Part shown: positions 3,803-42,300 of the stretch, piece after piece
How the letters are laid out: each line of letters opens with the position of its first letter
Position numbering within the stretch: position 1 is the first letter of the stretch
Source: a virus
DNA length: 60,041 bases
Virus record (IMG/VR): IMGVR_UViG_3300033155_000947
Location: 1 to 60,041 of that record
Direction: 5' to 3' (one strand)
Notes under the pieces: generated by a model
Seen by the model: the letters and a program-made list of their open reading frames with translations, nothing else
What the model was told of the DNA's origin: nothing
Databases searched by the model: none
Translations under genes and position numbers: made by a program

Positions 3803-3831
3803 TTGACAACTGTTATCGAAGTGTGTAAACT
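3803..3831 (+). promoter_or_regulatory. class-A promoter P2
   Basis: TTGACA at 3803-3808, a 17-bp spacer ending GAAGTGTG, and TAAACT at 3826-3831. It drives the small genes from 3871 and, behind them, the lysozyme-like gene. Confidence 0.8.
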
Positions 3832-3870
3832 GCGAGGGTAAACAGCTTTCACCCTCATACCGAGAACATC

Positions 3871-4003: not shown

Positions 4004-4018
4004 AGGAAACGGTACCCG

Positions 4019-4135: not shown

Positions 4136-4154
4136 CCCTCTAACCGAGAACACC

Positions 4155-5307: not shown

Positions 5308-5337
5308 AAAGCACCTACACGGGTTAGAGGAACATAC

Positions 5338-5346
5338 AGTATACCA
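5338..5346 (-). promoter_or_regulatory. extended -10 promoter for the thermonuclease (putative)
   Basis: On the minus strand TGGTATACT occurs about 24-30 bases before ATG 5307, matching an extended -10 element. No good -35 box is present. Confidence 0.4.
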
Positions 5347-5371
5347 GACGGAATAGCAGAGGAATCGCAAT

Positions 5372-6148: not shown

Positions 6149-6232
6149 ATGCTACCATACGCGACGGCAGACCCGGACAGGTACCACCGTACACGAAAAC
6201 ACACGTACTACACAGATAAACCCTCTTTTTGA
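6149..6232 (+). CDS. tiny hypothetical protein (27 aa)
   Basis: ATG 6149 directly follows the methyltransferase stop, with GGACGG upstream. The peptide is Tyr/His-rich (PYATADPDRYHRTRKHTYY). Only spacing supports it; it may be untranslated leader of the next gene. Confidence 0.3.
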   Translation: MLPYATADPDRYHRTRKHTYYTDKPSF

Positions 6233-6244
6233 AACGGATAGACC

Positions 6245-16801: not shown

Positions 16802-17113
16802 ATGCCCATGTCCGTCACCGTCTATTTCGTTCGCCTCATCCTAGCCGACAGCACCATCCTTATCGGATACAGCAAGGACGGGTACCGCTTCGACAGCAAG
16901 GGGCACGCGTACGCCCCGCACCACGCAGAGTATGCCAAGACGCTGTACAACCGCACCAAGCGCCTTATCCCAGCAGGCGCGCGTATCGAATTGATCAGGC
17001 GTACATACGACCCGCAGTACGGTCTCGACCTACTTGTACCGTTACCTAACGACCGCTCTGTCACATCGCACAACCAATCTGATAACCCGTTTTCAAGCAC
17101 AGATACAGCATGA
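16802..17113 (+). CDS. hypothetical protein (103 aa)
   Basis: ATG 16802 has the leader ACGGAGAACACC. It opens with beta strands (VTVYFVRLILADSTILIGYS) and has a helix rich in His/Tyr/Lys. A central RIELIRRTYDPQYGLDLLV strand pair follows. It overlaps the methyltransferase by four bases (ATGA), so the two are co-translated. No family recognised. Confidence 0.6.
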   Translation: MPMSVTVYFVRLILADSTILIGYSKDGYRFDSKGHAYAPHHAEYAKTLYNRTKRLIPAGARIELIRRTYDPQYGLDLLVPLPNDRSVTSHNQSDNPFSSTDTA

Positions 17114-18645
17114 ACGATATAGCCACCTCCTGCAACCTAGATCGCGTCATCGCCCACCATAACGAGACGTGCAAGCTCATCACACTACGCGACGAATACG
17201 ACAAGACAGCACGGGAAACCGCGAACAACCTGTATAACGGGGTCACCCTCGGCAGGTCTGCGAGCGGGCACAACCAGAATACCACCTCCGAAGACATTAC
17301 CGCCTGTGCGTGGGGCTATGTGCTGGAGCGTTCAGGACTGTGGTCGCTGATGAGCCACAAGCAACGCGACAGCTGGTCGAAGACGCTACTACATGACGAC
17401 CTACCCCCGTTCACCCACGACAACGTACACAATACATTCACGGAGCTGTACGCCCGCAGGTTCGATATGATTATCGACGCGGTCGAAGAAGTGTTCAAAC
17501 ACCTAAGCTGGTCGCACAAGACCAACGACCCGCGCGCCCTGTCCAAGCGTATTATCTTTAGCCAGATGACATCCGCAAGCGGGCTCGGGTTCCGCGCCAA
17601 GTGCCTGCTAGACGACCTCGAACGCTGTTGCCTGCAGGTTCTCGAGCTACCGTTCCCATCCCACGAACGGACGCTAGGCTCCCTACTCTCAAAAGCCTGT
17701 GACACCGTACGCAAGACCGTGGCCTTTTACGACACGTTCCAATGCGAATACGACTGCGACCTATTCCACATCCAGACGTACAAAAAGGGCACCGCCCACA
17801 TCACGTTCAAGAACCCTGAAGCGCTCGCAGGACTTAACCGCCTGCTGGCACTACGTTACCCCACCGCGCTCGCCCAACACCGCCCGAAGAACACTGACGG
17901 CCTAACCGGTACGGAGCTGGTGCGCTGGACGGACACGCTTGTCTTTGACGGCCTACCGTCCGCACCCGCGTACATCGAGCACACCGTACAGGCTGTACCT
18001 GCTAATAAACTGGCACCGTACCTAAACGCGAAAGAGCAGGACAGGCTAAGCAACCACTACAAAGGGCTGACGGCACACGGACACTTCCCGACACCCGAGC
18101 CGGTGATCAGGCAGATGATTGACCTGTACGAACAATACGCACGGGGTGACGCAGGCGAGGCGCGTATCTTAGAACCGTCCGCAGGCTTGGGCTTCCTCGC
18201 ACGAGCCGTCTGGAAACGCGGGCACGATTGCGCAGTGGTCGAGTACAACCGTGACCTGTACGAGCACCTACATGACGTGATCGGAGTACCGTCCGAAGCG
18301 CGCTACCGTGGCGACTTCCTATCCTGTCACCCGCGCCACTTCTCACACGAGTTTGACGCAGTGCTGATGAACCCACCGTTTGAACGTATCAAAGGGCTAG
18401 GCTGGCAGGCACTACGCCACGTCCGGCACAGCGCCCACTTCGTACGCGCAGGCGGGCTCATCGTGGCGGTTATGCCCCGTGGATGGGATGGGCACCAAGA
18501 TAAGTTAACACAGCGGTTCGTGGAGTGGGCGAAGCCGTTAACGCAGGAGCACCTGCACCTACCCGCCCGCTCATTCTCTAAAGCGTACAACAACACCGAC
18601 GTGGACACGGATCTCATCGTACTGCGTATGCCCGAAGACGCTTGA
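17110..18645 (+). CDS. DUF4942-type class I SAM-dependent DNA methyltransferase
   Basis: A 511-residue protein in two parts. The N-terminal part (to about 310) resembles the DUF4942 domain found with phage and plasmid methyltransferases, including KKGTAHITFKNPEALAGLNRLL. The C-terminal part has FPTPEPVIRQM, SAM motif ILEPSAGLG (353-361), VVEYN, and the catalytic NPPF at 421-424. The order SAM motif then NPPF is typical of N6-adenine methyltransferases. It is probably an orphan enzyme that modifies phage DNA. Its TGA stop overlaps the -35 box of P7. Confidence 0.88.
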   Translation: MNDIATSCNLDRVIAHHNETCKLITLRDEYDKTARETANNLYNGVTLGRSASGHNQNTTSEDITACAWGYVLERSGLWSLMSHKQRDSWSKTLLHDDLPPFTHDNVHNTFTELYARRFDMIIDAVEEVFKHLSWSHKTNDPRALSKRIIFSQMTSASGLGFRAKCLLDDLERCCLQVLELPFPSHERTLGSLLSKACDTVRKTVAFYDTFQCEYDCDLFHIQTYKKGTAHITFKNPEALAGLNRLLALRYPTALAQHRPKNTDGLTGTELVRWTDTLVFDGLPSAPAYIEHTVQAVPANKLAPYLNAKEQDRLSNHYKGLTAHGHFPTPEPVIRQMIDLYEQYARGDAGEARILEPSAGLGFLARAVWKRGHDCAVVEYNRDLYEHLHDVIGVPSEARYRGDFLSCHPRHFSHEFDAVLMNPPFERIKGLGWQALRHVRHSAHFVRAGGLIVAVMPRGWDGHQDKLTQRFVEWAKPLTQEHLHLPARSFSKAYNNTDVDTDLIVLRMPEDA

Positions 18646-22108: not shown

Positions 22109-22717
22109 ATGGACACCACCACTACAATCAACGTCAACGTATCAGGCAGTCTCGACATAAGCGAGGCACCTGCCAAGCCCATCACAGGCCTACAGCCGTC
22201 CAAGCCCGAGACTATCCGCACGTTTGACGATCCGATCCTCACCGAGGTCTGCGACATCACCGACTTCGAGGCCTGCCTGCGAACGGCTAGCACGCTTATC
22301 GCCTCTGCCCTTAAAAGCGAGACACTCGCCGCAGGGCTCGCCGCCCCTCAGATCGGAAGTCTGTGCCGTGTGTTCGTATGGCGCGATGGAGGTGACGCAC
22401 CGTTCAAGGTGGCGATCAACCCAAGCATACGCCCCGCCAAAGGCGCGAAGACGGTTGCAGGACCTGAAGGGTGCCTCAGCTATCCCAAGCACGCCACCGA
22501 GGTACTACGTTTGAATAAGATCCGCGTAACCTACACCGACGAGCATAACAAGAGCCAGAGCGCGTTCTTGCGAGGCTTCGAAGCCGTGGTCTTTCAGCAT
22601 GAGTTTGACCACCTGCGAGGCATCTGCCCTGTCGCCCGTGCGTGGAAAGCCGAGACAGCGCGTGTCGCTAAGCTGAAAGCCGAAGACGAAGCCGAAGAAG
22701 CAATCGCACAGGATTAA
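22109..22717 (+). CDS. def: peptide deformylase
   Basis: This metalloenzyme removes the N-formyl group from new proteins. All three family motifs are present: GLAAPQ at 76-81, EGCLS at 120-124 with the metal ligand Cys122, and HEFDH at 164-168 with metal ligands His164 and His168 and catalytic Glu165. The first glycine of motif 1 is Ala. An N-terminal extension of about 35 residues and an acidic/basic C-terminal tail (KLKAEDEAEEA) flank the core. The leader repeats that of the preceding gene. Phage-encoded deformylases are known from marine phages. Confidence 0.95.
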   Translation: MDTTTTINVNVSGSLDISEAPAKPITGLQPSKPETIRTFDDPILTEVCDITDFEACLRTASTLIASALKSETLAAGLAAPQIGSLCRVFVWRDGGDAPFKVAINPSIRPAKGAKTVAGPEGCLSYPKHATEVLRLNKIRVTYTDEHNKSQSAFLRGFEAVVFQHEFDHLRGICPVARAWKAETARVAKLKAEDEAEEAIAQD

Positions 22718-22721
22718 GACC

Positions 22722-24122
22722 ATGGCCGACGCTGACAAAACATACTTGAAAGACGTGGGTAAGACACTACTAACCGCCAGCGGTAAGCTGTGTGTGGGCG
22801 ACGATTGTTGCGCGTCTGTCGAGTACTGTGGTACGCTCGGTCCTACCCCCGCATGTGGAGCTTATGAGGGCTTTGACATATACCTCACAGCCTGCTCAGT
22901 CAGCGGAACACCGTCCGACTGGGTAGGCACGGGCACGCATCGCGGAACGCCCGCACAGTGGACTGCGGAGTTTTGCGGTGACCCATTTAACCATCCGAAC
23001 GGGTGGCGCTACGTCCATTTAAATGGCGAGTGTTTTGTTTATGTCGGCGCAGACGGCGGTATTGCACACTGGCCTTGGGACGACGGTGGTGGTTGTCAAC
23101 ACACGTCCGACCCTGACTACCAAGATGAGATACCGATTGTTGGCCCTATTACGTTTTTCTGGGACTGCGAATGTTCGGACTTTTACCAGTTACAAGACTG
23201 CACCGACTTGTTCTCTTTCATAACGGTCTACGAGAACGAATGGATAGCCTTGCACGGAGCGGCGACCATAGGGCAGGTGTTCAAAGAAGACGGAGGGACA
23301 GCCTGTTGGAAGTTAACCGCCATCACCAAGGCGCCTATCGTGTTTACCATAGGCCGTAAGCCTACGAAAGACGCAGACTTCTTCGCGGTTCCTGCTTTCG
23401 TAGACTGTGACCTCTGCCTCGGAAACGTCATACACCTAAGGGACTGTGAGACGGGATTGGTTCACCACTACATACCCGCAGACGATTGGGTAGGTGCGCA
23501 CGCGGTACTCCCTACGGTGGGCGAAGCGTGGGAACGCTGGGCAGACGGTCTCTGCTACGAGATCATAGCCGTGGACGACCCGTTCCAAAACCCTACAATC
23601 ACGGCAAACAGTAATGACGAACAGTTCGACAGTTGTGCCTTGTGTGCGGACTATAAGATTAAATTCACGGACTGTGCGACCGGCTTAATAGACAAGTACG
23701 TGCACATGGATGAGTGGCTAAACTATAAACCAAGCGCGCCGAGTATCGGAGACGTCTGGCTGTACAACGAATCCGGGGACGTTGCGTGCTTCGAAGTTAC
23801 GAGCGTGACCGAGCCTGCGATCATAGGCGGTAGCGCAGACGCCTACAACTTCGAAGGAGAGTTCGCAGACTGTAACACCTGCAATAATCAGATGATTAAG
23901 ACGGTGGACTGTGCGACAGGTACGATCTTCCACTACATTCTACGGTCTGAGTGGCTATACTATCACGGGGCGTTGCCTACGGTCGGCACCGCGTGGCTTG
24001 TGGACGGTACGGACTGCTTTGAAGTCTTGTCGATCACACACCCCTTGCAGGCTCCTAACCACGACAGTGACTATTACAGCGTGGAGTATGCTAACTGTAC
24101 CGACTGCGAGGATGCGTTATGA
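22722..24122 (+). CDS. cysteine-rich repeat protein (466 aa)
   Basis: From about residue 150 the protein is built of four repeats of about 75-80 residues. Each has DCxTG....Y....W...., then a PTVGxAW....G.CFEV.SIT stretch, and closes with a C..C pair. The 150-residue N-terminus is also cysteine-rich but different. No signal peptide is visible, so a disulfide-free or metal-bound form in the cytoplasm, or assembly into the virion, is possible. The next gene overlaps by four bases and encodes sugar- and sulfate-transfer-like domains, so this protein could be their substrate or a receptor-binding fibre; this is inference. Confidence 0.7.
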   Translation: MADADKTYLKDVGKTLLTASGKLCVGDDCCASVEYCGTLGPTPACGAYEGFDIYLTACSVSGTPSDWVGTGTHRGTPAQWTAEFCGDPFNHPNGWRYVHLNGECFVYVGADGGIAHWPWDDGGGCQHTSDPDYQDEIPIVGPITFFWDCECSDFYQLQDCTDLFSFITVYENEWIALHGAATIGQVFKEDGGTACWKLTAITKAPIVFTIGRKPTKDADFFAVPAFVDCDLCLGNVIHLRDCETGLVHHYIPADDWVGAHAVLPTVGEAWERWADGLCYEIIAVDDPFQNPTITANSNDEQFDSCALCADYKIKFTDCATGLIDKYVHMDEWLNYKPSAPSIGDVWLYNESGDVACFEVTSVTEPAIIGGSADAYNFEGEFADCNTCNNQMIKTVDCATGTIFHYILRSEWLYYHGALPTVGTAWLVDGTDCFEVLSITHPLQAPNHDSDYYSVEYANCTDCEDAL

Positions 24123-26131
24123 TGAAACACTGCTTTAACATATTCTGCCACAAAGGTGACGTCACGGTCGCCAAAGAGTGTAAACGCTTAATCCTCGAGG
24201 TTATGGGTGAGGTGCCCGTATACATTGTCGGTGACGACGACGGAGGCGAAGGCTACGACATGACCAGCACCTTTGACAGGGGTGGGAACCTGTCAAGCAA
24301 AGAAGCATGCCTCGGGCTCTTACAAACCTGCATAGAGAACGGACTACGCACACAGGCCGACTTCTTGTGGAAGGTCGATCCCGACACCGCGCTATTGAAT
24401 GACACACTAATCGCCAAGGTCGAGGCTATAGGAGCAGAGACAGCAGGATATATCGGGCACCCTTCCCGTGGCGGTCACGTTGACTACGAGAAGGCGACGT
24501 TTGGTTGCATGCAGGGCTGGACACCGTCTTGCGCGAAAGATCTGTGGCACTTTATGGACGCAATGTCTATGAGAATCCACATGTTCGGAGACGTGGAAAT
24601 GAGCGGGATCTGCAACGGTATGAAAAAGAAGGGCGCGTACCTACCGAGTGGCAAGGGCGAACACGCGCTGACGTTCAGTGGCGGAGGCTTCCCGGCACAC
24701 GCATATACCCAGCACGGGTACAGCGCAGTGAACACAGGTAACCCGCCCACAACCACCAAAGCACAGCTGAAACTTATGCGGGCGTTCAAGGGTACACTAC
24801 GCCCCGCCGTTCGTACCCAAGTGAACGGTATAAATAACAGGGTGATAGGGGCGTACCACTTCGTCCACGTCCCCAAGACAGGCGGTACCTCGATTGAGAA
24901 GGCGGCGGAATTACGTGACACCCCGCTCAGTAAGCGGTACGGTGACCCCCGTTATCACTTCACCGCAGACGCGATTGAACGTACGTTGCCTGTTATGGCT
25001 ACGTACCGTGATCCCATGGACAGACTGTGGTCGCTGTTTAATTACTTCAAGGGGCGGGACGAGACACTAGAGCACTTCCTCGCCCGCCCACGCAAGCGAC
25101 GCGCGTTGTTACCGGTTAAGTATTTCACCCACAGTCACACTACAGGCAAGTGTTTGGTCACCGACTGGCTAGACTTTAATGATCTGCAGGGAAGCCTTGA
25201 CGCCTTAGACGCAGGCATCACAATCCAGCACAACAACCAACGCGGAGAGAAGCTCGAGCGCACAGCAGAGGATGAGCGGTTACTGCGAGAACACTATCCT
25301 ACGGACTTCACACCCCGCGACGCTGATATAGATGTCAAAGACATAAGCCGTAACCGCAAACGTGACCTGTCGAGGGTGCGCAGGCGCGACAAGATCCGAA
25401 TGGTCGACAACAGGTACCAGTTTATTCACATCCCCAAGACAGGTGGTACCTCCATAGGCAGGCAGTACGGGATCCGGCGCAAGCACATGACTGCGGATCG
25501 CATCACAAGCGACCTCCCGTTCTTCGCGGTCTACCGTGACCCCATGGAACGGCTGTGGTCGGTGGTGCGATTCTTCAAACCAGCGTCCGAGACGGTTGAG
25601 GAGTTCATCACAGGTGAGAAGGCGCTTGTCTACCTCCGACCTGCCAAGCACTTCACCCACAGTCACACTACAGGCAAATGTCTGATCAACCATTGGATTG
25701 ACTTTAATGACATCAACGCAGGGCTGGCAGAGCTAGGCCTCGAACCGGTGGAGCACCACAACAAGGCGCGGAAACACAGACTGAAACGCACACCCGAATA
25801 TGAGCGGTTACTGCAAGAACACTACCCTACGGACTTCCTACCGCGTGACGCGGACGTCGACCCCAAGGACATCGCGTTTGGAGCGCGACACACCACCCTC
25901 ACCCTCGCCATCAACCCTGAGACTATCCGTGTATGTGAAGCCAACCTCGAAATCTGCAAGGTATGTGCTCACTACGACGGGCGACCTCAGATCCGAGAGT
26001 CCCGTAACAAGTTCCTGATTGCTCGCGTACGATGCAAGAAATCAGGAGCCTGCGGTAAGTGGGTAACGCTGACCGGCAGTGGGTGCGACCTTAACCTGCA
26101 CGCTCCGGCACCTGACGCACGTAAAAAGTAA
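24119..26131 (+). CDS. glycosyltransferase-like domain fused to two sulfotransferase-like domains
   Basis: Residues 1-230 resemble a GT-A type fold with an acidic VGDDDGG and a DxD-like motif in FLWKVDPDT (Asp87, Asp89). Two tandem domains follow with the signatures of PAPS-dependent carbohydrate sulfotransferases: a 5'-phosphosulfate loop VPKTGGTS (251-258) and 3'-phosphate motif YRDPxxRLWS (296-305), then IPKTGGTS (438-445) and YRDPxxRLWS (472-481). Each also has a conserved FTHSHTTGKCL. The C-terminus has a CKVC...C...CGKW zinc-ribbon-like end. The two copies are very similar in DNA, indicating tandem duplication. A polysaccharide or glycoprotein substrate is likely. Confidence 0.78.
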   Translation: MMKHCFNIFCHKGDVTVAKECKRLILEVMGEVPVYIVGDDDGGEGYDMTSTFDRGGNLSSKEACLGLLQTCIENGLRTQADFLWKVDPDTALLNDTLIAKVEAIGAETAGYIGHPSRGGHVDYEKATFGCMQGWTPSCAKDLWHFMDAMSMRIHMFGDVEMSGICNGMKKKGAYLPSGKGEHALTFSGGGFPAHAYTQHGYSAVNTGNPPTTTKAQLKLMRAFKGTLRPAVRTQVNGINNRVIGAYHFVHVPKTGGTSIEKAAELRDTPLSKRYGDPRYHFTADAIERTLPVMATYRDPMDRLWSLFNYFKGRDETLEHFLARPRKRRALLPVKYFTHSHTTGKCLVTDWLDFNDLQGSLDALDAGITIQHNNQRGEKLERTAEDERLLREHYPTDFTPRDADIDVKDISRNRKRDLSRVRRRDKIRMVDNRYQFIHIPKTGGTSIGRQYGIRRKHMTADRITSDLPFFAVYRDPMERLWSVVRFFKPASETVEEFITGEKALVYLRPAKHFTHSHTTGKCLINHWIDFNDINAGLAELGLEPVEHHNKARKHRLKRTPEYERLLQEHYPTDFLPRDADVDPKDIAFGARHTTLTLAINPETIRVCEANLEICKVCAHYDGRPQIRESRNKFLIARVRCKKSGACGKWVTLTGSGCDLNLHAPAPDARKK

Positions 26132-27093: not shown

Positions 27094-27191
27094 AATCACG
27101 CGCTAAACGGCTTGAACGGTTATCATAGTACTATACTACGGACAGCCCGCACTTGTTAGGCGGAGCACACCTACTATTACAGGATAAATTG

Positions 27192-30100
27192 ATGACCTTT
27201 ACCGACTTCCAAGCCGACTTCCGTGCCGATACCCTGCAAGTCGAGGTCGCAGAGGCCGATCGTGAGACGTTCTTGCAGTTGTTGGCTGAGTCTAAGCACC
27301 TCGAGCAACAGGGCGTCACTACAGGCAACACCGTACTCGAGGCGTCATACGCACGCCTAGCCACAGCCTCCGTCCACAAGGCGTTCGAGCTGGTTGAGGG
27401 TGCGGAGCTCGATAACACTGACACCGGCAATGACACCGATAACGACGACACCGTACCTGACAAGACGTACGAGGGCTTTAATGCCGAAGTGAGCAACCTG
27501 AACGAAGACATTTTATCCGTATTCAATGCGTCCCTGAAGTGGCAGGACGCCAAGGCTATTGCGCACGGACGCGCTTTTTCTATTAAACAAGTGAAAGAGT
27601 CTGAGCACTACACAGTAACCGTGGACGAACAAGAGACAGGTACACTTTTCCTGACAATCGCAGGCGCGAAAGCCGGATGTGGCCGGTACCTACAGTCGCT
27701 CGAAGAGGCTGGCACGTTAAAGCAAAGTTCGGGTGACAGTTTGTCACATGCTGGCGTACCCTACACCGAAGAGCAGTACCTCGAAGAGGCGAGCAAGCAC
27801 GACAAGCTGATCGACAAAGCGTTCAAAAAGCACGGATACGGACACACTATCAACATGCGCAACCTGAGCAAGGTCTTCCGTGAAGCCGGTGACGCGCTTA
27901 AGGCGGGCAAAGACCTAGACAAGGAAATGCCACAGATCGTCAAGAAATACACCGTAGGTGAGGGCGTCGACGAAGGCAAGACCCCACCGCCCCCTGCCGG
28001 TTACAAACTGTACACAGGCAAGCTCGAACGCAACCAGAAGTACTACATGCTCAACACCGAAGCCCCTGCGCCTAAGTGGCTCCCGATGAGCGCGGCGGGT
28101 AAGCAACGGATCAAGCCCAACACGCTGATCGCGATTGCCGAGACCGCAGACGACACCGACCTAGACGAAGGCGTTACACCTATTATCGGCAAAGGTGTTT
28201 CGAAGGATAAGCTCGCGAATGCTCCGAAGTGGTTACTGCGCGCGACTACGAGAGGCGAGAAGGTTGCGTGGGCTAAAGACGGCAAGACTCTGGTCTGGTT
28301 AAAAGGGTCGTGGCTGTGGGGTGACTGGAAAGACGGTATTTGGGAAGGCGGGCACTGGGGCGGGGGTACGTGGCATCACGGTATATGGAAGTCAGGTACG
28401 TGGCACGGAGGTGAGTGGAATGGGGGTACGTGGATAGGAGGAGTCTGGAAGTATGGAGTATGGGGCGGGGGTACGTGGCATCACGGTATATGGGAAAAGG
28501 GTACGTGGAAAGGCGGGGTATGGAAAGACGGGGTATGGAAAGACGGTACGCGGCCCACACCCTTACGCGAAGACACCGACCTAGACGAAGGTTTCACACC
28601 GCTCGACACCAAATCCTATCCTAAGGGTTCGGTCATCAAATGGACGTCACCTGACGGTACGAAGAGTAAAGGCAAAGCCACCAGCGGTAAACTAATCAAC
28701 GGGACGGTGCTTGTCACCCCCGACGGCAAGCGCGCAAGTGATGCAGTAATCGTCAAGGTCTCGACAATACGCGAAGACACCGACCTAGACAACGACCTAG
28801 ACAGTACGCTGGAGCTATCAGAAGCCTCTGAAGTGTCCGTCCGTAACCTGCCTAAGCCCATGGTGTCAGCCGTCAACAAGATCGGCAAGATCACTACAGC
28901 GTGGTCAGGCATTCACGGCATCATCCTGTCTGTCGCGCTCAAGAGCGAGCGAGTCGATATGAAGGATCTTAAAACGCTCGACCCGCGCTGGGTAGAGTTC
29001 AAAGGCAAAAAAGCGCTGTTCGGCCTAGCCGGTCACGTTGACGAAGGCGTTGACGAAGGCAAGCGCGCTCCCTTTAAGTACCGCACCGACGATGGTAAAG
29101 AGCACGTGGGACGCGCGTACGCAGGCAGACTCCCTAAGAAGGCGATGATTTACGTGGATAGCGAGGGGCTAAAATCAGCACTGTCGCTACCGGACTTCAA
29201 GGCGTATGACGGCAGTTTTGACAAAAGCAAATACCGATCCGCCACCCTCGTAGAAGACACCGACCTAGACCTCGAGGAAGCCTCGTATAAAGTAGGCACG
29301 GAGCTACCTTATACTGCGAAGGCGCTTCGCAAAATATACGCAGACGGCTATGGTGCCTCGGTGATAGGATCAGGGGGAGGCGCGTCGGACACGTTAGAGT
29401 ACGGTCGCGACATGGCGGACGCTACGTTCGTGCGTAAAATACTAGACAGGGACAAGCTGGACACTGTGTTGAAACAATCCGCTTCAGTACTAAAGCACGC
29501 TAATACTGATAAGAAACTCAAAGGGCGTAAGCTCTTGATCGTGATTAAAGCAGTACCTGTCAGCCTCAAAGAGACCGCAGACTATGGCGACACCGACCTA
29601 GACCTCGACGAAGCGGCGCCAAAGCTCACTACGTTATCATTCGGTGACGAAGTGGAGATCAATACGCAGTACAAGCGCGCAGGTAAAAAGCCGGTTATGA
29701 ACGGAGCTCTGTACGACTGGATCGCTAAGAAGTTCGGTAAAGGTAACGGTCTGACGATTACAAACAAAGCCTCCGCACTAAAAAAAGGTAAGGTCGAGAT
29801 CCACAAGAGCGTGGGCGCGTCCTCCACAGTGAAAACGATTACGCTGTACCCGTACGGTAAGTTCCTGTCGTATTACGACAACCAAGGTGGCGGTATGATG
29901 AACAACGGGATTAAGAAGTGGTACGCCCTCCCCGCCAACATGATTGCCGAGAGCGTGGACAGCACGGATCTTGCCAGCATCGAAGAGGCTACTGCGCAAG
30001 CGCTGTCCATCATAGACGCGGACTATGACGCTCCGACCGAGTACATTGACCCCGACCTTGACGAAAAAACGAAAGACCGTTTCCGTATGGAGCGTCGCAC

Positions 30101-32372
30101 ACAAGCAACACTCGACAAACTCTCCCGCAAAATGGGCGGACAGTCTGGTGGCGAGGGTACTACTCCTCCGTACGCCAGCGGATTAGAAGGCAGGCGAAAA
30201 GGCTACGGCATGGTCGCCGCTTACGTGTTTGATGACGAAGACTCTGCGAATAAGTTCGCCAAGTCCGCCAAAGACAAGGTCAGCAAGACCGAGGTAGGCA
30301 AGCCACGCGCCTTTTCGAAAAAATGGTGGGTTGACGTATCTATGCCGTCACCACTCAAAGAGTCGGAGATCGAAGAGCTCGCAACCGAGTTCGACCTCGA
30401 CATTACTGATCTTGACGCAGTCGACCACGACACTACAACCGCGTGGGCGGACAGCGACCTTGATGAGGGTATGTCGAAGTCACAAGCTCAGCAGTTGCTC
30501 AAGGTCTACAGCAAGAACGAAGACCGTAATTACCACACCGAGAACATCGTGTTGCTCGCTAAGGCGTTCTACGGCACCAGCAGTCGCGAATACAAATACG
30601 CGAAGGCTATGCTTGACTATCGGGAAGACAACAAAGAAGGCGCGCAACCTGATAAGGCGATGGATCGTAAGATCAACATGTCGTACTACAAGCTGAAGAC
30701 ACTGGCCGAAGACGCACAGGCGGAGCTAGACGAAGCCTTAGAAACCGCGAACATTATACGCAAACAGCTAGGACAGAAGGCGTTGTTTATGATGGGCGCC
30801 AAGAACCTAGCAGGCGACAAACACTCGCTAAGTTTCCGTATCGGCAAGAACAGCAGTGGCGGTAACCATGTTAAAATCCACCACGGCTCCGACGACCTGT
30901 ACACGGTCACCGTCAGCGCCATCCGCGGAGGCAAGGTAAAGGTTAAGAAGGAGTTTAAGAGCGTATACGCTGATAAACTGCACAAGACCCTGCAAGACGC
31001 GACCGGTATGGCGCTCAGCCTAACCAAGCACTACGAGTCAGACAACAGCCTAGGGGAAGGCTTATCGACAGCCGACAAGCATCAGAAGAAAATCGCAATA
31101 GACACCGTCCGTAACCCTGCAAAAGCCTTGCTCGGCGGACCGTCCGCCAAGGAGGCGGAGACGGTACTACGTACCAAGTTCAAGTACTCCGACAAACAAA
31201 TTCAGAAAATTAAGGAACACACTATGCCCCTAGACACAGACAACCCACTCGACGAAGCCGGATACATGACCCCTGCGATTGATGCGATTTACAAGTCGGT
31301 CAAAGACCTAAAAGGTAAGCAGAAAAGCGACGCGCTTGCTGTTTTAGCCACGGCAGTGTTGGTAGACTATCTCAACAAAAAAGGCGACAAAGCACAAGCC
31401 GAACAAAGCAAGAAGGATTCGGTACGTGCGGTCGCTAAATACACACAGACCTACCTCAAAGAAGGTGCCACCGACAATACCGACACCGGCGCGGATACCA
31501 CCGACACCGACAACACTGACGTCGATGAGGTGAACCCAGCCAAAGGCGGACAGCTGGCGGTTGAAGCGCTTGCGCGCATTGACGACTACGCACGTATCGG
31601 AGACGATCAACACTTCGAAGACGCGCAGACCGCCATCACCCGTTTAGCGCGCATTGGCGAACACGCCACGGGCGTACCACAAGAGCTGTGCAACACTGAA
31701 GAAGGTGTTCCGGTTCACACCGCCAAGGTGATTGACGCCCTGCGCACCCGTCTACAAGGAGTCGGAGAAGAGGTTACCGTCCGTCAGATCCGCGCGCTCC
31801 TATCAGAGCAGTTGGATATGTCCAAGGTACCGCTGGAGCTACTACGCGAAGTCGACAGCGCCTTAGAGTCAGGGTCGTCACTCGAGTTCGAGGCCGCTCT
31901 TGACGCATTGGCAGACCATGAAGGCGTGGCACCAGACGTTATCGAAGGCGTGCGCCGTATGTCCCGTTCTACTGTTATGCAACGTAAGCGCTCCGCACGG
32001 TTGAACGCTAATAACCCCGAGGTTAAGGCGAAAAACCGTGCCCGCCGTAAAGAGCGTAAACGCAACACAGGAATGCGTCAGGCCGAGAAGCGGTACAAGA
32101 AGAAGTACCGCCCACGCCATGAAGCTATTCGCGATGACACGGACTTCGACTTCGAAAGCTGTGTCAGTTTCCTCACCACACCCGAGGACGCGGACTATGT
32201 TGCCGAAATGGCCGACGCCCTTGGACTGGTCGAAACCTACACCATCACCGAGAACGGAATCCACGTTCAGGTCGAGATCTTAGAGGATACATTACGCGTT
32301 ATTGACGCCTATATGGACGCCCCTACGGACGAAGAGGCGGAAAGTATCGTCGCCACCGTGCTAAACGCTTAA
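27192..32372 (+). CDS. giant mosaic (polyprotein-like) protein, probably virion-associated (1726 aa)
   Basis: The start is ATG 27192 after AGGAT. The protein is a chain of small, mostly basic modules of 60-110 residues joined by acidic linkers of the type EDTDLDEG. Five linkers are identical over 15 bases at the DNA level. Residues about 371-454 are GxWxxG repeats. Modules near 1080-1380 resemble stand-alone small phage proteins, for example MGAKNLAGDKHSLSFRIGK and GGPSAKEAETVLRTKF. The region near 1590-1640 is very basic. No membrane segment is seen. The location upstream of head genes suggests an internal head protein cut by the prohead protease; this is inference. Confidence 0.75.
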   Translation: MTFTDFQADFRADTLQVEVAEADRETFLQLLAESKHLEQQGVTTGNTVLEASYARLATASVHKAFELVEGAELDNTDTGNDTDNDDTVPDKTYEGFNAEVSNLNEDILSVFNASLKWQDAKAIAHGRAFSIKQVKESEHYTVTVDEQETGTLFLTIAGAKAGCGRYLQSLEEAGTLKQSSGDSLSHAGVPYTEEQYLEEASKHDKLIDKAFKKHGYGHTINMRNLSKVFREAGDALKAGKDLDKEMPQIVKKYTVGEGVDEGKTPPPPAGYKLYTGKLERNQKYYMLNTEAPAPKWLPMSAAGKQRIKPNTLIAIAETADDTDLDEGVTPIIGKGVSKDKLANAPKWLLRATTRGEKVAWAKDGKTLVWLKGSWLWGDWKDGIWEGGHWGGGTWHHGIWKSGTWHGGEWNGGTWIGGVWKYGVWGGGTWHHGIWEKGTWKGGVWKDGVWKDGTRPTPLREDTDLDEGFTPLDTKSYPKGSVIKWTSPDGTKSKGKATSGKLINGTVLVTPDGKRASDAVIVKVSTIREDTDLDNDLDSTLELSEASEVSVRNLPKPMVSAVNKIGKITTAWSGIHGIILSVALKSERVDMKDLKTLDPRWVEFKGKKALFGLAGHVDEGVDEGKRAPFKYRTDDGKEHVGRAYAGRLPKKAMIYVDSEGLKSALSLPDFKAYDGSFDKSKYRSATLVEDTDLDLEEASYKVGTELPYTAKALRKIYADGYGASVIGSGGGASDTLEYGRDMADATFVRKILDRDKLDTVLKQSASVLKHANTDKKLKGRKLLIVIKAVPVSLKETADYGDTDLDLDEAAPKLTTLSFGDEVEINTQYKRAGKKPVMNGALYDWIAKKFGKGNGLTITNKASALKKGKVEIHKSVGASSTVKTITLYPYGKFLSYYDNQGGGMMNNGIKKWYALPANMIAESVDSTDLASIEEATAQALSIIDADYDAPTEYIDPDLDEKTKDRFRMERRTQATLDKLSRKMGGQSGGEGTTPPYASGLEGRRKGYGMVAAYVFDDEDSANKFAKSAKDKVSKTEVGKPRAFSKKWWVDVSMPSPLKESEIEELATEFDLDITDLDAVDHDTTTAWADSDLDEGMSKSQAQQLLKVYSKNEDRNYHTENIVLLAKAFYGTSSREYKYAKAMLDYREDNKEGAQPDKAMDRKINMSYYKLKTLAEDAQAELDEALETANIIRKQLGQKALFMMGAKNLAGDKHSLSFRIGKNSSGGNHVKIHHGSDDLYTVTVSAIRGGKVKVKKEFKSVYADKLHKTLQDATGMALSLTKHYESDNSLGEGLSTADKHQKKIAIDTVRNPAKALLGGPSAKEAETVLRTKFKYSDKQIQKIKEHTMPLDTDNPLDEAGYMTPAIDAIYKSVKDLKGKQKSDALAVLATAVLVDYLNKKGDKAQAEQSKKDSVRAVAKYTQTYLKEGATDNTDTGADTTDTDNTDVDEVNPAKGGQLAVEALARIDDYARIGDDQHFEDAQTAITRLARIGEHATGVPQELCNTEEGVPVHTAKVIDALRTRLQGVGEEVTVRQIRALLSEQLDMSKVPLELLREVDSALESGSSLEFEAALDALADHEGVAPDVIEGVRRMSRSTVMQRKRSARLNANNPEVKAKNRARRKERKRNTGMRQAEKRYKKKYRPRHEAIRDDTDFDFESCVSFLTTPEDADYVAEMADALGLVETYTITENGIHVQVEILEDTLRVIDAYMDAPTDEEAESIVATVLNA
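27733..27747 (+). promoter_or_regulatory. palindrome copy 5 (intragenic)
   Basis: GTGACA-GTT-TGTCAC lies inside the giant gene, encoding GDSLSHA. The CCGAAC flank and the promoter are absent. Confidence 0.55.
28152..28166 (+). repeat. linker 15-mer, copy 1 of 5
   Basis: GACACCGACCTAGAC encodes DTDLD. Identical in-frame copies are at 28572-28586, 28776-28790, 29256-29270 and 29589-29603, each at a module boundary of the giant protein. Confidence 0.9.
28302..28553 (+). repeat. GxW repeat array (coding)
   Basis: About sixteen five-residue units of the form GxWxx, such as KDGIW, HHGIW and GGGTW, make a Trp/Gly-rich solenoid-like segment inside the giant protein. TGGCATCACGGTATATGG is repeated at 28370 and 28478. 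Confidence 0.85.
28572..28586 (+). repeat. linker 15-mer, copy 2 of 5
   Basis: GACACCGACCTAGAC, directly after the GxW array and before the module starting at FTPLDTKSY. Confidence 0.9.
28776..28790 (+). repeat. linker 15-mer, copy 3 of 5
   Basis: GACACCGACCTAGAC followed by a second partial unit (AACGACCTAGACAGT). Confidence 0.9.
29256..29270 (+). repeat. linker 15-mer, copy 4 of 5
   Basis: GACACCGACCTAGAC preceding the LEEASYKVG module. Confidence 0.9.
29589..29603 (+). repeat. linker 15-mer, copy 5 of 5
   Basis: GACACCGACCTAGAC preceding LDEAAPKLTT. Confidence 0.9.
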
Positions 32373-34191: not shown

Positions 34192-36294
34192 ATGCTTGTC
34201 TACGATTACGGCACCTACACGCGCAAGGATCTCGCACACATGCTCGTTGTGCCCGACCCGCGCAACATGCACACCCTGCTCGCCCGATCAGTAGGCACTA
34301 CGCAGTGGAATGAGGTTAACCGGATGACCGGCGAAAGCCGTCCTATACAGGCAGACGATGTCCGCCTGCAGAACCTCGACGATGTGGTACAGCGCGCCAC
34401 CGTGGAGCTCAACAAGTCCAGCACAGGCGTCATCAGCTTCGACCAGCTGGAGAATGTCTCAGAGGACGCCCTGACGCTCGCGTACGCTCACGACATTGAC
34501 CTAGACCCTACAGACACCCGCGCCTTCGAGACACAGCTCATGGAGCTCCTAGGGCAGGCACAGATAGCCGAAGACGATAGGCGCATAGATGAGAGCCCAC
34601 ACGACCCTGCGGCGCTCCGTGCGGTCTTCATAGCCGGAAGTGGTGCCTCGGGTAAAGGCTTCGTAGGTCGACAAATATTCACAGCGCGTGACGGGTTCCA
34701 TACCGTGAACGCGGACACCCACCTTGAACGCCTGCTCAAGAAGAAGGGCATAGCTCCCAAAGATGTAGGCAAGCACTACGGACTGTTCACCAAAGCACGT
34801 GACCTGCGACATGCCGAGCTCGGAGTACGCGCATCCGTCCGTCAGGGCATGGTTATCGACAGCACCGGATGGGATTACCCGCGTATAGCCAACCCTAAGA
34901 AGGCGCTCGAGAACCTAGGGTACGATACGTACATGGTGGTGATTATGACCACGCTCGAAACCGCGCGCAAGCGCAACAAAGACCGTGGAGCGTCCGGAGG
35001 GCGAGAAGTACCCCAATCGTACATCGACGATGCGCACCGAGGGCTCATGGATAACCTAGGGCGGTACATGCGGTTGTTCGGAGCTGGGCGCATATTCATA
35101 ATCGACAACGACGATGATCTCACACCCCGCCAGTTTCAGCAGATCGTAGGAGCGAAGCTCAAACAGATCCGCAAAAAGATTATGAACAAGCCGATCAAGA
35201 ACCCGCTGGGCGTGAAGTGGCTTAAAAACGCGTACGCACAGTCCGCGGACAAGGTCAAGAAGCAACAACGGTACGTTACCCGCTCTGCCGGAGACCAACA
35301 AGACCATACACGCGCCAAGCCTGTGTCGCTGTCGCACTACGTACCGAAGCCCAAGGCCTTCGGAGCATCCCTGTCACAGGCACAGACATCGTACAGCGCC
35401 TCGGCCAATGCGTTCGCAGGCGTGAAGGCGCGTAAACGGGCTAAAGTCTTGCCGGAATCGCAGATAACCGAGGACGATTACCCGAAGGTTACAAAAGACG
35501 ATAAGCGCCACATAGCAGACATGCAGAAGAATCGTCGTATCCCTTCCGTGGCGGACAAGGGTATGGCGATAATCGTACGCTGGGCGGACGGTCGAGGGCT
35601 CTTTGCCGTGCGAAGTAAGAAGGCGGTCGCTGATTGGTATGCGAGCAGTAAGTCGGGCGAGCACCCTGAGATCGTATCCATCAAGTACGGGAAGGCGGAG
35701 CACAAGGGCAAGCCACTACGTGTGAGCGAGTCCGCTAGCCACCTCACAGTCTCGCTGATCAACGGCCTCACCCACACCAGCTACTGCCCTAAGTGCGAAT
35801 CCACAAAGGTAACACACCGTGAACGGCACGCGGACACCTCTATCAGTTACTGGGAGAACCGATGCAACGCCTGTAACCACGCAGGCGAGAGCGCAACATT
35901 CACCAGCGATGCGGTTATGTACGCAGAACCCACCCCCGCAGAGGCGAAGGCTATAGCGCTAGAACAGGCACAGGCAGACGGAGACACCTGCGCACAGATG
36001 GCGTTGGTACTCGGGCTGGATGTCGACGACCTGCGCGTCAAGTGGGACAAGATAACACAGGATTCAGAGCTGTCCGAGAGCGTGACAAACTGTCACCCGA
36101 ACCATAACCATACAAAAGCGTACGAACAAGCGGTGGCACAGGCGGAGCGTTACCGAGCATCACCTCCGTCCTATGGGGAGGTCGCGCAACGGATAAAAGA
36201 CGTACGCGAAGTCAGCAACGAACAAGCGTACGCCTTATCATGGTATTTACACGGACAACAGCTCAGCGCTTCAGACGCGCTCGCCACTCTATAA
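34192..36294 (+). CDS. P-loop kinase-like multidomain protein with zinc ribbon (700 aa)
   Basis: Residues 1-140 are unrecognised. Walker A GSGASGKG (149-156) begins a P-loop domain of the zeta-toxin/polynucleotide-kinase type, with VIDSTGWDY and TLETARKRNKDRG downstream. A basic linker then leads to KVLPESQ near residue 421, a likely prohead protease site. The region near 533-570 is a zinc ribbon with two CxxC pairs (CPKC and CNAC). The gene contains palindrome copy 6, encoding VTNCHPN. Placement suggests a head-associated enzyme, possibly carried into the host; substrate is unknown. Confidence 0.65.
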   Translation: MLVYDYGTYTRKDLAHMLVVPDPRNMHTLLARSVGTTQWNEVNRMTGESRPIQADDVRLQNLDDVVQRATVELNKSSTGVISFDQLENVSEDALTLAYAHDIDLDPTDTRAFETQLMELLGQAQIAEDDRRIDESPHDPAALRAVFIAGSGASGKGFVGRQIFTARDGFHTVNADTHLERLLKKKGIAPKDVGKHYGLFTKARDLRHAELGVRASVRQGMVIDSTGWDYPRIANPKKALENLGYDTYMVVIMTTLETARKRNKDRGASGGREVPQSYIDDAHRGLMDNLGRYMRLFGAGRIFIIDNDDDLTPRQFQQIVGAKLKQIRKKIMNKPIKNPLGVKWLKNAYAQSADKVKKQQRYVTRSAGDQQDHTRAKPVSLSHYVPKPKAFGASLSQAQTSYSASANAFAGVKARKRAKVLPESQITEDDYPKVTKDDKRHIADMQKNRRIPSVADKGMAIIVRWADGRGLFAVRSKKAVADWYASSKSGEHPEIVSIKYGKAEHKGKPLRVSESASHLTVSLINGLTHTSYCPKCESTKVTHRERHADTSISYWENRCNACNHAGESATFTSDAVMYAEPTPAEAKAIALEQAQADGDTCAQMALVLGLDVDDLRVKWDKITQDSELSESVTNCHPNHNHTKAYEQAVAQAERYRASPPSYGEVAQRIKDVREVSNEQAYALSWYLHGQQLSASDALATL
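36082..36096 (+). promoter_or_regulatory. palindrome copy 6 (intragenic remnant)
   Basis: GTGACA-AAC-TGTCAC followed by CCGAACCATAACCATACA. The right flank matches cassette 2 far beyond the palindrome, so a cassette fragment is embedded in this coding region. Confidence 0.6.
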
Positions 36295-36323: not shown

Positions 36324-39300
36324 ATGCCATTAGAACCTCTCGACGAAGCCGTCACAATCAACACAGGGGACATACGACAAGCCCGCCATAAGGTTAAGCT
36401 AGCACAGCCCCTATGGTCAGCCGTGTTTGCACTGGCACAAGAGAGTGACGCCCTTACAGAGTACGTGGCGCCCTACCGTGCGTACATCCAAAAAGGCGAG
36501 AAGACCCCCGCATCTGTGATCAACGCCATGCCACCCGCGTTAGGCCTGTTGTTCAAGGTGATGCACGAGGCCGGTGCCGGATACAAACAGATTGTACAGA
36601 ATACCGCTAAACAAGAGCAGGCCGAAGGTTACGGCATGTTGGCGAAGATTAACGACGACCCTGACGCCATCGCAGACAACCAGCAAGTATGGTCGTTCGC
36701 AAGCGACAGCATCCGTGCCCGCTTATTCGACATAGCACGCGGTCGCAACATCGGATCCCGAGCACTACGTGTCCAGCAGACGCGCAAGCGCCTAGCCATA
36801 ATCATCGACGAACTATTCCCGAAAGACATATCACGCTTCAACACCGCGTATAAGACCGCGGTTAAGGGTGATTTCGACAAGCTGGCCTCCGTCTGGGCAG
36901 ACGCAGACCCGCTGTTCGCGAAAGCGATAGCACAGACCGCAGTCGCAGGACAAACTGCAGATACGGCTACCGGTACCGACGCGCCTGATCCTGACCTCGA
37001 GCCTGCGGTCGTTGACAAAGACAGCAGTTTGTCCGCGCCTCCGAAGACCAAGAAGATAGGGAGCGCCTACCCGCAATGGGTTTATGCGATTGCCGACGCC
37101 AATATGGATGATTTCGTACAAGGCGAAGACGATGACGCAGTGAGCGCAGTGGTAACCCCCCTAAACATTCACGATACAGGTGTCGGAGTCTCGCACGAGC
37201 TCTTCGATTTCCCGTTCTACGTGACAACCGGCAAAAAGAAGGTACTCGAAGTACAAGGCGCCGCGTCGGCTATGGTGAGCTTCACTACGCTTACCAACCC
37301 TGACGGAACCACCGAGATCGTACCGTCCCAAACAGACATCGAATTCGCGCTGTTCGATGAGCAGACCGGTAAGTATTACGTCACATCCGACTCGGATCTG
37401 ACCGACGTACTTGCAGGCAGTTACAAGCTCACCGCGCATAAGCCACACACGCAGGTGCCACAGCAGGTTAAGCCGGCGCCCACGTTCGCCAACCCTGAGT
37501 CCCTGCCTGAGCCTGAATACACGCCCCCGTCACACCTAGCCACACGTCCTGAGATCTGGGGAGTGGTGTTATGGCGCACGGGCATCAACCAGCTCGTGTT
37601 CCGTACGTACGACAACTCGACCTACAGTGATAGCACGCTGTCCCAAGGCGCCACATGGAAAGAACTGACGCAGGACGCCCACTACGGAATCTATCTGCCG
37701 TTGGTGAACAAGGAGATAAAGCTGACGCATCTGACACGCAAACAGATGCACAGCAACCTCGCGAACCCTGTGCCTGCGGTTGCGAACGTCCCTACAATCA
37801 TTGACAGGTCGAACCCCTTTACCACACCAGCACCCGCCATGCGGGTACGCCCAGACGGCACGAAAATGTACCTGATAGCCGTCCTCCCGCTTCCGCAAGG
37901 GGATCGGTACGTGTATGCGCGGGCGATTTATACCGCGATAGAGTCCGCACACTTCAGTAAACTGCACAAAGCGTTCCAGCCCTCGGACGCTTCCGAAGAC
38001 AGTAACATCGCTAATATACCTGAGCCCGAGTTTGAAGACTTCGCACACCTAGCGACCTCCGATTACCTGCAGAGCGTGGTTACATGGGGCAGTCCGATAG
38101 GAGGCGTACCCACACTACGCTACACGGTATACAGCCAAGACGCTTCGGCTAGCCTCTCCCTGTCCTACAACGAGACATGGTCGGAGCTCCTGCACAGCCC
38201 TAACCATCTACCGTACCTCGCACAGGTCAACAAAGTCAGGACGTTGACGAACCCGACACACCCTGCACTGCGTATCTGGTTAGGGACGGAAGGCTTTAAA
38301 GACTTAAGCAAAATGACGCCGGGCGCCGCGGTTAGTAAGATGCTAACAGGGAACGACCTAGCTTCGCTGTTGGATCTTAAGCTGTCTTTGATAGCGCGCA
38401 CCGATACCGAGGATACGCACTACATGTTGGTGGACATTATCAGGAGCTCAACAGGGTCTGCGCGCCACGTATACGCTATGCGTGAAAAGAATAACGACGG
38501 GACGTACGGTAACCTAAGCGTAACCATCACACAACCGAAAGAGGTTGCACAACCGGAGCCGTCAGAGATAGTCCCTGCGTCGCACCCTGACATCCCGCAT
38601 CCGACTGCGATCGGTCGCTGGTTCACAGGCTCCAACAAGGCCTCCGCAGGCGACAAGATTTCCGTCTATCTGGTAAAAGAGGGCAAGGACTTCGACTACG
38701 CTACGGAGGATGCGCACACCCTCCACCAGACTGCAACCGTAATAGACGCGCCCGCAGGTAAGACCCTGTCGATAACAAGGCACGGAAAGATCACCGAACA
38801 GGTTATCACATTCTCACAGCTACTAACCTTAGGGGTTCAGTACACCAAGGACGTGATGAGCGCAGAAGAGAAGAAGAAGTCGGATCAGGCTGTGAGCCAC
38901 GAGAACAAACACGCGCTATTCGCAGGCGCGGGCATGAACAACGTAACGGCAGTAACCGGTCACATGCTGTCCGCGAAGACACACACCACTGCACCCGGAG
39001 CCTACGCCACGACAACAGATATAAACGCCCTGAAAGCAGGTAAGGACGTACCCGATACTGTGCTCCTCTACTACATCACACCGCACTCATGGGTGAATGA
39101 ACTAGGGTACAGCATACCGCATGTGATCCTATACCGTGGCACCATACAGCTAGACGACGCAGGAGCGATCGTCGCAGAGTTGATGGAATCAGCGGAGTCA
39201 CCGTCCAGCGATATACACATGGTAACCAAGTCGGTAGACTCGGGAGCGGTCTTGCCTGTCACCCTTGCTAAATCGTCTCCGCTTATGCCCCCTGTATCTG

Positions 39301-42300
39301 TGCAGAGCGGTACGGGCGTGGTACTCGACAAAGACGACCCGCTTGCACGAACTGCGAGCTCGATACCACAGACACCTGCATTCTTAGGCGGGTTCTATAC
39401 CAACGGCGATCAGCTGGTCTATGTATCACTACAGACCGATGAAGTTGACAAAGTACTCGGGTACGCTTTCGGCACCGTCAAGGACGTGAAGAACGTCGCA
39501 GGCGCGGATTATGTAACCGTCGACCCCTCGCTCCCTGTGTCCGCAGACCTCGTACAACTGACGGCTACCAGCTCTATGACCTCGTATGAAGCAAGTACAA
39601 CTCTAAAGCTCGAAGAGCTAGACGGGCTGTTCTCGGACTTCACACGTGCGTACTTGTTCCTCGACAACAGCAAGGTGCCTGCGTTCGAACGTATAGGGAT
39701 GGGCACGTACAAACAGCCGTTGCGCTTAGCAGGTGTTGAGGCCACGAAAATAGGGACAGTAGAAGACAGCCACGGGGCGCTGAAACAATACCCGCCACCT
39801 GCTATTACCCCCACCAACGACCCGAAACTTGTCGGCACGAAACTCCCGAAGGCGGGCGTGGTGGTTTATAACGCACAGACACAGTCGATCCTGTTCATGG
39901 AACCTGCTAACCACTACAATGAGGTGGGCTTGTCCCTGCCGAAAGGTACGGTTGAGGCTGGTGAGACGTTAGAACAAGGGGCTGTGCGTGAGTGTTTCGA
40001 AGAGACGGGGCACGCAGTACGGTTGATCAAGCATATAGGTGACGTACAGAACGTGCGCTGGTTCTTGGCCGAGACCAAAGCCGTGAACACAGATGCGATA
40101 GGCGACGAAACATCGTCCCTTATCTGGGGCGCTCTGACCCCACAGAAGATGCTATACCCTGACCTGCAGTTACGCCTCCGCCCGCGCGATAAGAAGGTCG
40201 TCATGCTGGCGCTGAAACTGCTCGAGGATGCGAACGCATGGGCAGATACGTCCGAAAAGATTATGGCCACTGACGTACAGACAGGAATCACCGGTTATGA
40301 CAAGCACGGGGTGCCGATCGCGGTCAGCCATGTGCCGGTATCAGACTTGACGCCCAAACAGGCGAAGCGGGTTCCGCCCAAGACCACGAATGTGAACGTC
40401 GTGCATACGAAAACCACGAAGAAGACGCACAATACGAAAGCAGTGATAGACTACGTAGAGAACCTCGACGGCGCCGACATCCCTGAAGCCTCTGACGATA
40501 AGAGCACAGGGGGCGGGTCGAACCCTGCGTGGATCATCGAGCGTAACGGTATGAAGTACAGGCTCAAAGCCTCCAAGGAAGGCACCACTAAGGGCGATAA
40601 GATCCGCGCACACGCAGAGGAGAGCGCGTGGGGTCTGATGTCAGCGCTTAAAGCGGACGGAGTGGCGTCTGGTGTCGCCAAGTACAAAGGCAGGGTCGTG
40701 GCGATACAACCGTTGGTTGACGCAGACGTCGAAGCATCGTTCAACACGGACGACGTCTCACACGCGGACGCAGGTGCGTTGCTCTATCAGCACGTCATTG
40801 ATATGTTCATGGGCGACCACGACGGGCACGCAGGCAACTGGCTTCGTGTGAAGGGTAAGCCACTACCTATCGACCGCGGACAGGCGTTCAAATTCCACGT
40901 ACAGGCGGTCAAGAACGGGAGCACGTACATGCCTGAACTGCACCCGTCGCATAACCCTGCGGGCAATGTCGGACAGCCGTTAGCTAAGAAGCTCTTGCTC
41001 GACTGGTCAGCAGGGACGGTAACCCTACCTGAGAGCGCCTTTTCACGTATGGCGTTGGCTCTCACACGCGTCAGACGCATCACAAGCGACGCGCTTCGAC
41101 CTATGTTAGCGAACCTCGCAGACAGCGCAGACGTCTCGGTGGTCGACCTCACCAACTCTGTTTTAATGGCGCAAGCAACCTACCTCGAGTCGTGGACTGC
41201 GGTACTCAAGTCACTACAACCAGACTTCGCGTGGGCGGTTACACCTAAGGGCATCAGCGCCTCGCTGAATAGCCCACTCGAAACGCCTGCGGATATGGGA
41301 CTGCACAATGAAGTCAATGACGTCGTGATGGACGCAGAGCTTATCCAACGCGCGGGCACCAACGGTATCTCGGTCGCCATAGCAGGGTCGCACGTAGAAA
41401 ACCAAGAGGTTCTCGCCAAAGTGGTCAACCTGACGCAGAACGTGGGCGGGCAGTCGCAGGGCACGCTAATGACGTGGAAATTTACCAAGAGCGCCACAGA
41501 ACAGGCGTCCATATTCATACAGAGCCAGCTAGACGAAAACAGTACGATGTCCACGGCTAACACAGGGGCGTCAACCTCGACCGCGAACAACGGTATTATC
41601 CAGCACGTCGGAAACCAGTACCGCTTAATGGCAGAGGATACGGATAATAAGTACTGGGAAATTATGAGCATGATGGCGAAGTCTTACACCTCTCGCCTAT
41701 GCCGGATCGTAGACGAAGCCGAGGCAGGCGCGCTGGGTATACCCGGAGCTAATATCACCCCACCTCGAGGTGGCTGGAGTACGAAAGAGTCGTTTGTCAA
41801 CGGAGAGAGCAAGTTGTCGGACTACTACAAACAAGCTCAGCCGGTTATCGCGCGCATCAAGCAAGAGCACGCCAAGAAACAGGTTACGGGAACCACCGCC
41901 AACGGTGAGCCGTATGCCGTGGTGTACGCTATGCTGTCGCACTATATGGAGAAGCTCAAAGCATTTGACTATGTGTCCGAAAACGAAGCAAAGCTCTTGG
42001 CCGACAACCCGAAAGGCTTAGAGCCTATCGTCATCGTACCGTTTGACTACGTACCGGTCGCAGACAAAGCACAGGAACAAGAACGCGAAGAGCGCTCACG
42101 TGTCGGATCCGGAGCAACCTACTTCACATCCTCGACCGTCAAACTGCCCGGCGTCTCTGCCGTGTCCCACGGGTCAGACACGCACGCACCCGTACCGTAT
42201 TACACGCCCGGAACCGGCCAAGGTCTGTCGCTGAACGTAGGAAAGTCCAAGACATACGCTGTGACGTTCAAGAACGCGCCCGGCGTTACGTTTGCTATGA

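Follow-up and report, generated by a model that had tools for sequence, protein, structure and literature searches.

Can a single phage polypeptide both transfer a sugar and sulfate it? This question is raised by one gene in the viral record IMGVR_UViG_3300033155_000947, the whole of which (60,041 bp) was analyzed and is referred to here as the window. The phage is represented by metagenome DNA only; a T4-type major head protein, a prohead protease and a tail sheath recognized in the window identify it as a contractile-tail tailed phage, with head and sheath proteins ~25–32% identical to their nearest named relatives. An earlier note on this DNA had placed a glycosyltransferase fused to two sulfotransferase domains at 24119–26131, and this location proved to be correct, with an intact frame on the + strand (Table 1). 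The GC3 of the gene (0.66) is similar to that of the neighbouring genes, and neither a terminator pattern nor a promoter excess was seen around it.

Table 1. Coordinates of the fusion gene, its predicted domains and motifs, and the overlapping upstream gene
Feature	Position	Strand	Basis
Cys-rich acidic repeat protein, 466 aa, 27 Cys	22722..24122	+	ATGA overlap with fusion gene
Predicted glycosyltransferase-sulfotransferase-sulfotransferase fusion, 670 aa, complete gene	24119..26131	+	ATG-to-stop frame
Head, aa 1-240, probable GT-A/GT31-like glycosyltransferase domain	24119..24838	+	Weak model, DxD
KVDPD, DxD-type metal/nucleotide-sugar motif, D87 and D89, aa 85-89	24371..24385	+	Aligned with DxD of phage GT31-like proteins
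Sulfotransferase domain 1, aa 246-409	24854..25345	+	Viral sulfotransferase profile, 59.1 bits; fold, pLDDT ~90
PKTGGTS, 5'-phosphosulfate loop, copy 1, aa 252-258	24872..24892	+	Motif, residue comparison
H280, catalytic-type His, copy 1	24956-24958	+	63/64 relatives
RDPMDRLWS, 3'-phosphate motif, copy 1, aa 297-305	25007..25033	+	R297, P299, S305 in 64/64 relatives
Sulfotransferase domain 2, aa 433-585	25415..25873	+	52% identity to copy 1; viral sulfotransferase profile, 52.8 bits
PKTGGTS, copy 2, aa 439-445	25433..25453	+	Motif, residue comparison
H456, catalytic-type His, copy 2	25484-25486	+	Residue comparison
RDPMERLWS, copy 2, aa 473-481	25535..25561	+	Residue comparison
C-terminal tail, aa 606-670, zinc-ribbon-like	25934..26128	+	Cys 606, 613, 616, 639, 645, 656

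The two motif-bearing domains are sulfotransferase-type domains

For sequence characterization of the two motif-bearing domains, a viral sulfotransferase profile of 78 non-redundant members was used, drawn from viral contigs that had been selected by the motif H-x-PKTGGT-[ST]. Both domains were matched by this profile (scores in Table 1). Deletion of the P-loop, by which the motif-selection bias is removed from the score, still left 21.7 and 19.3 bits for the two domains, compared with 4.5 bits for the best of 400 shuffles. The fusion protein was also matched by phrog_3347, annotated as "galactose-3-O-sulfotransferase", across the P-loop and the RDP region (E 2.6e-7). Standard searches with Pfam and NCBIfam returned nothing for either domain, and PF03567 (Sulfotransfer_2) gave no match at all in the fusion protein, let alone one above its curated cut-off. 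Because phrog_3347 and the viral profile match and PF03567 does not, the domains are termed divergent relatives and not members of the Pfam family. A match to phrog_6025 ("DNA methyltransferase", E 0.003) was attributed to chance, covering aa 371–407 alone and lying outside the PAPS motifs, and the C-terminal tail gave a single weak match, to phrog_34935 (E 0.026).

Comparison with 64 viral relatives showed that both copies keep H.PK.GGTS, the His, R.P..R..S, the H.N pair and the late Asp. Among these relatives, the Arg, Pro and Ser of R.P..R..S are invariant, the His is present in all but one, and the late Asp is found in 59 of the 64. Conservation of the P-loop is largely built into the motif search; that of the His, Arg, Pro, Ser and Asp located elsewhere does not stem from this selection. 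The 5'-phosphosulfate-binding loop, PK[TCN]GGT[ST], is present in both copies, as are the Arg and Ser of RxPxxRxxS that bind the 3'-phosphate (R297/S305 and R473/S481). For H280 and H456, the catalytic role is taken over from known carbohydrate sulfotransferases and is presumed to apply here. At one further position, the Glu conserved in most relatives is replaced by Asn in both copies (N354 and N530), as it is in three relatives.

An AlphaFold2 model of aa 1–428, for which sulfotransferases served as alignment rows, covered copy 1, and this copy folded with a pLDDT of ~90. Its best structural matches were heparan sulfate (HS) 6-O-sulfotransferase (HS6ST; Z 9.7 over 160 aa, 3.8 Å) and 2-O-sulfotransferase (2-OST; Z 8.2 over 150 aa, 3.7 Å), followed by the sulfotransferase domain of NDST (1nst, Z 7.3) and by bacterial and cytosolic sulfotransferases; nearly all of the structural matches listed for copy 1 are sulfotransferases. 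Plain Foldseek searches of the two-domain model against PDB and BFVD gave no match at E < 0.001, probably because the low-confidence head makes up half of that model. We regard the sulfotransferase fold as close to certain. The top matches to the predicted structure act on glycans, which agrees with, but does not prove, a carbohydrate acceptor.

The earlier note had called both domains carbohydrate-type sulfotransferases, a reading borne out by the profile with and without the P-loop, by the PAPS-type residues kept in the viral relatives and in both copies, and by the fold predicted for copy 1. Both are genuine sulfotransferase-type domains, and it is likely that the fusion protein catalyzes sulfate transfer.

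The tandem duplication is not recent, and both copies are constrained

The two copies share 52% identity over 165 aligned aa (E 6e-60), with copy 2 lacking 11 residues directly after the P-loop. Over 153 aligned codons, identity was 56% at the amino acid level, 63% at the nucleotide level and 48% at third positions, corresponding to a dN of 0.38, a dS of ~1.4 (1.39) and a dN/dS of ~0.27. A recent tandem duplication had been proposed for these domains. The duplication itself is clear, but synonymous sites are near saturation and it is therefore not recent; the low dN/dS indicates that both copies were held under constraint while they diverged.

The N-terminal head is probably a glycosyltransferase

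No Pfam, PHROG or NCBIfam family matched the head, nor did PF01762, and no sequence relatives of it were found in phage records, in viral contigs or in 50 whole viral records carrying sulfotransferases. The head carries FLWKVDPDT, a DxD stretch of the kind known in GT-A enzymes, in which D87-P-D89 comes after a predicted strand (residues 82–86). This stretch is common to phage proteins that include members of Pfam Galactosyl_T (L133 and L141); when it was masked, pairwise similarity of the head to phage glycosyltransferases was near chance. A viral locus (L181) that by eye resembled a relative of the head was discarded, its pairwise score lying within the shuffled range. Weak phmmer matches to lytic transglycosylase in PDB (E 0.035) were attributed to chance.

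When the head was modelled without relatives, the first 40 residues alone were confident (pLDDT ~80), forming a strand-helix-strand, Rossmann-like start. With GT31-like rows added, a GT-A arrangement was obtained at a pLDDT of 52, with best matches to CHSY3 (Z 11.9) and C1GalT1 (Z 10.1); these rows are presumed glycosyltransferases that were picked for the motif, and the model leans on them. Nearly all of the structural matches listed for this low-confidence model are GT-A enzymes, and D158, a second acidic residue of the head, aligns with the ED motif of the GT31-like rows. The head shares a predicted GT-A arrangement, the DxD and a downstream acidic motif with GT31 enzymes (the CHSY3 domain, C1GalT1 and B3GalT5/6) and with the phage proteins L133 and L141, but is without significant similarity to GT31 or to phage Galactosyl_T-like proteins outside the DxD stretch. 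It is not filed as a GT31 member, because no family matches it and masked scores are near chance. In the earlier proposal of a GT-A-like head with a DxD-type motif, the motif holds; the GT-A fold is plausible, being deduced from that motif and a low-confidence model and not from a sequence match. Taking the modelled arrangement and the motif together, we consider the head to be a glycosyltransferase with fair confidence.

Viral sulfotransferase genes are common, fusions are rare

Stand-alone sulfotransferases proved to be common in viral contigs, with at least 120 motif matches. Among 102 sulfotransferase ORFs that were collected, 100 encode proteins no longer than 320 aa. The two exceptions are the window protein, the only one with two sulfotransferase motifs, and a viral protein of 1077 aa (L030; IMGVR_UViG_3300010883_000030, 3496–6729), the only other one fused to a glycosyltransferase. 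L030 combines Mannosyl_trans3, FkbM methyltransferase and Sulfotransfer_2 domains. Its 59-kb record also contains a GT4-like gene and genes for a major head protein and for a sulfotransferase of the Stf0 type (PF09037, E 7e-21), and is likely to hold a sulfated-glycan gene set in a virus. Locus L189 (14451–15104) lies in the same record. Full-length relatives of the fusion protein were found neither in phage records, plasmids and IMG/VR nor in a scan of GTDB genomes, and 369 genomes of one class yielded a sulfotransferase-type match only. The earlier description of a very unusual phage activity therefore does not fit sulfotransferase genes as such, but it does fit the glycosyltransferase fusion, with one other case among the 102 ORFs, and the tandem copies, which are unique among those collected.

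Like the window protein, L030 holds a glycosyltransferase and a sulfotransferase in one viral polypeptide and has a Cys-rich gene just upstream. It differs in the glycosyltransferase family, in the extra methyltransferase and in having a single sulfotransferase, and the sulfotransferase parts of the two proteins are ~35% identical, in the motif region only. Fusion of a sulfotransferase to a glycosyltransferase (only a probable one in the window) has thus occurred at least twice in viruses, with different glycosyltransferase domains.

The window protein combines enzymes of known kinds in a new domain arrangement. With Sulfotransfer_2 (PF03567, which includes the HS 6-O- and 2-O-sulfotransferases) it has in common PKTGGTS, RxPxxRxxS, the catalytic-type His, H.N, the late Asp and the fold, whereas its copies are ~155–165 aa each against a profile of 252 positions, carry Asn in place of Glu, and stand two in tandem. 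The 219-position profile of phrog_3347 is about as long as a stand-alone sulfotransferase, whereas in the window the domain is doubled and fused. NDST, a bifunctional heparan deacetylase/N-sulfotransferase with a single sulfotransferase, likewise joins a sulfotransferase to another glycan-modifying domain, but its partner is a deacetylase and not a glycosyltransferase.

The overlapping gene encodes a candidate acceptor

The fusion gene is flanked on one side by the genes for a peptide deformylase and the Cys-rich protein, and on the other by large phage proteins. Its ATG lies within the stop codon of the Cys-rich gene (ATGA, 24119–24122), so the two genes are probably translated together. The phage peptide deformylase gene (22109–22717; PF01327, E 1.7e-31) lies directly upstream of both. 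Strongly acidic and containing repeats, the Cys-rich protein had no match in phage records, Pfam, PHROGs or NCBIfam. For both fused genes, that of the window and L030, the ORF directly upstream has a Cys content of 4% or more, whereas only 1 of the 100 unfused sulfotransferase genes follows a Cys-rich ORF, one with 3.1% Cys; this association was spotted after the fact, with cut-offs of our own choosing. Homology between the two Cys-rich proteins was considered and rejected, the sequences not being alike. Gene overlap and shared gene order are suggestive only, making the Cys-rich protein a candidate acceptor or virion partner. That the acceptor is a phage protein at all is a serious possibility, though it falls somewhat short of being probable.

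Possible functions of the fusion protein

On balance, we lean toward a single polypeptide that builds a sulfated glycan, likeliest on a phage-made protein. The N-terminal GT31-like GT-A domain would transfer a sugar from a nucleotide-sugar donor, and the two tandem, independently maintained Sulfotransfer_2-type domains would then sulfate that sugar or neighbouring hydroxyls. Host PAPS would be the sulfate donor; no PAPS-making gene was recognized among the window proteins scanned, and the window holds no sulfotransferase besides the fusion protein. The first candidate among possible phage-made acceptors would be the Cys-rich repeat protein of the overlapping gene. The analysis establishes the gene, its motifs, the duplication and the homology and fold of the sulfotransferases; catalysis by either copy, glycosyltransferase activity, the order of the steps and the acceptor are inferred. 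Counting against this reading are the missing PF03567 match, the absence of sequence relatives of the head and the low pLDDT of its model, the Glu-to-Asn replacement in both copies, the failure to recognize a PAPS-making gene among the proteins scanned, and the post hoc nature of the Cys-rich association. The boldest form of this proposal, in which the phage would use a single GT-ST-ST polypeptide to equip one of its own virion proteins with a glycan carrying one or possibly two sulfates, is rather unlikely.

The sulfated sugar might instead be destined for the O-antigen, the capsule or an S-layer glycan at the surface of the host, whereby an infected or lysogenic cell would escape recognition by other phages. 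Such a role would be in keeping with the occurrence of stand-alone sulfotransferase genes alongside sugar genes, as in a viral locus (L002) where a Sulfotransfer_2 gene has a cytidylyltransferase gene and one with weak exostosin-type matches as neighbours, and with a relative in Alloalcanivorax (L003) that lies just downstream of what appears by eye to be a nucleotide-sugar dehydrogenase gene. In the window itself, however, no flippase, polymerase or integrase was recognized among the neighbouring proteins scanned, and the fusion gene overlaps the Cys-rich gene and sits between the deformylase/Cys-rich pair and large phage proteins; we consider a host-surface role improbable. Also improbable, to a similar degree, is that the head is inactive or a binding module, leaving a double sulfotransferase that would act on a preformed glycan of host or phage, on protein or on small-molecule hydroxyls. 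The lack of sequence relatives of the head, the loss of significant similarity without the DxD stretch and the low confidence of its model are all compatible with this, whereas the position of the DxD after a predicted strand, the alignment of D158 with the ED motif and the predominance of GT-A-type enzymes among the matches listed (for a model that depends on the GT31-like rows) speak against it.

A variant of the favoured reading, and compatible with it, is that one sulfotransferase copy would be catalytic and the other a structural or substrate-holding pseudo-enzyme. The 11 residues missing directly after the P-loop of copy 2 would suit this arrangement, but neither copy has lost any PAPS-site residue or the catalytic-type His, and dN/dS is ~0.27; we hold the variant to be doubtful, if a little less so than the two alternatives above.

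A full-text literature search found no paper with the term phage-encoded sulfotransferase. Sulfotransferase genes have been described in OM43 phages, where their role in phage genomes was stated to be unclear (PMC10580990), and the joint appearance of sulfotransferase and PAPS in connection with phages in two other papers refers to PAPS reductase (PMC10434257, PMC10269572). In the window, the sulfotransferases are tied to a probable glycosyltransferase, in a gene that overlaps that of the candidate acceptor, which narrows the question of their role in phages by pointing to glycan sulfation and to one particular protein. Virion sulfation, if true, would be a new chemistry among the decorations of phage particles and might play a part in adsorption or in the stability of the particle. 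To our knowledge, a sulfated glycan on a phage particle would then be the first shown.

Other genes in the window

Several further genes of the window were noted. Downstream of the fusion gene, a 1739-aa protein (27153–32372) has DTDLDE repeats between its segments, one of which matches phrog_9437, and a series of GGxWxxGxW repeats near residues 390–475. A 700-aa protein (34192–36294) includes a zeta-toxin/AAA_33 P-loop kinase domain within a longer chain (PF06414, E 5.5e-11), and a 2355-aa protein (36324–43391) has a NUDIX domain in mid-chain (PF00293, E 2.8e-12), the remainder being without a match. The gene immediately following that of the major head protein (48581–49555) carries two HNH endonuclease stretches. 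At 17110–18645, DUF4942 and a DNA methyltransferase-like domain are found in a single protein. A Destabilase (i-type lysozyme) domain, of a family known mainly from animals, is encoded at 4155–4751 (PF05497, E 7e-7) and possibly belongs to a lysis enzyme.
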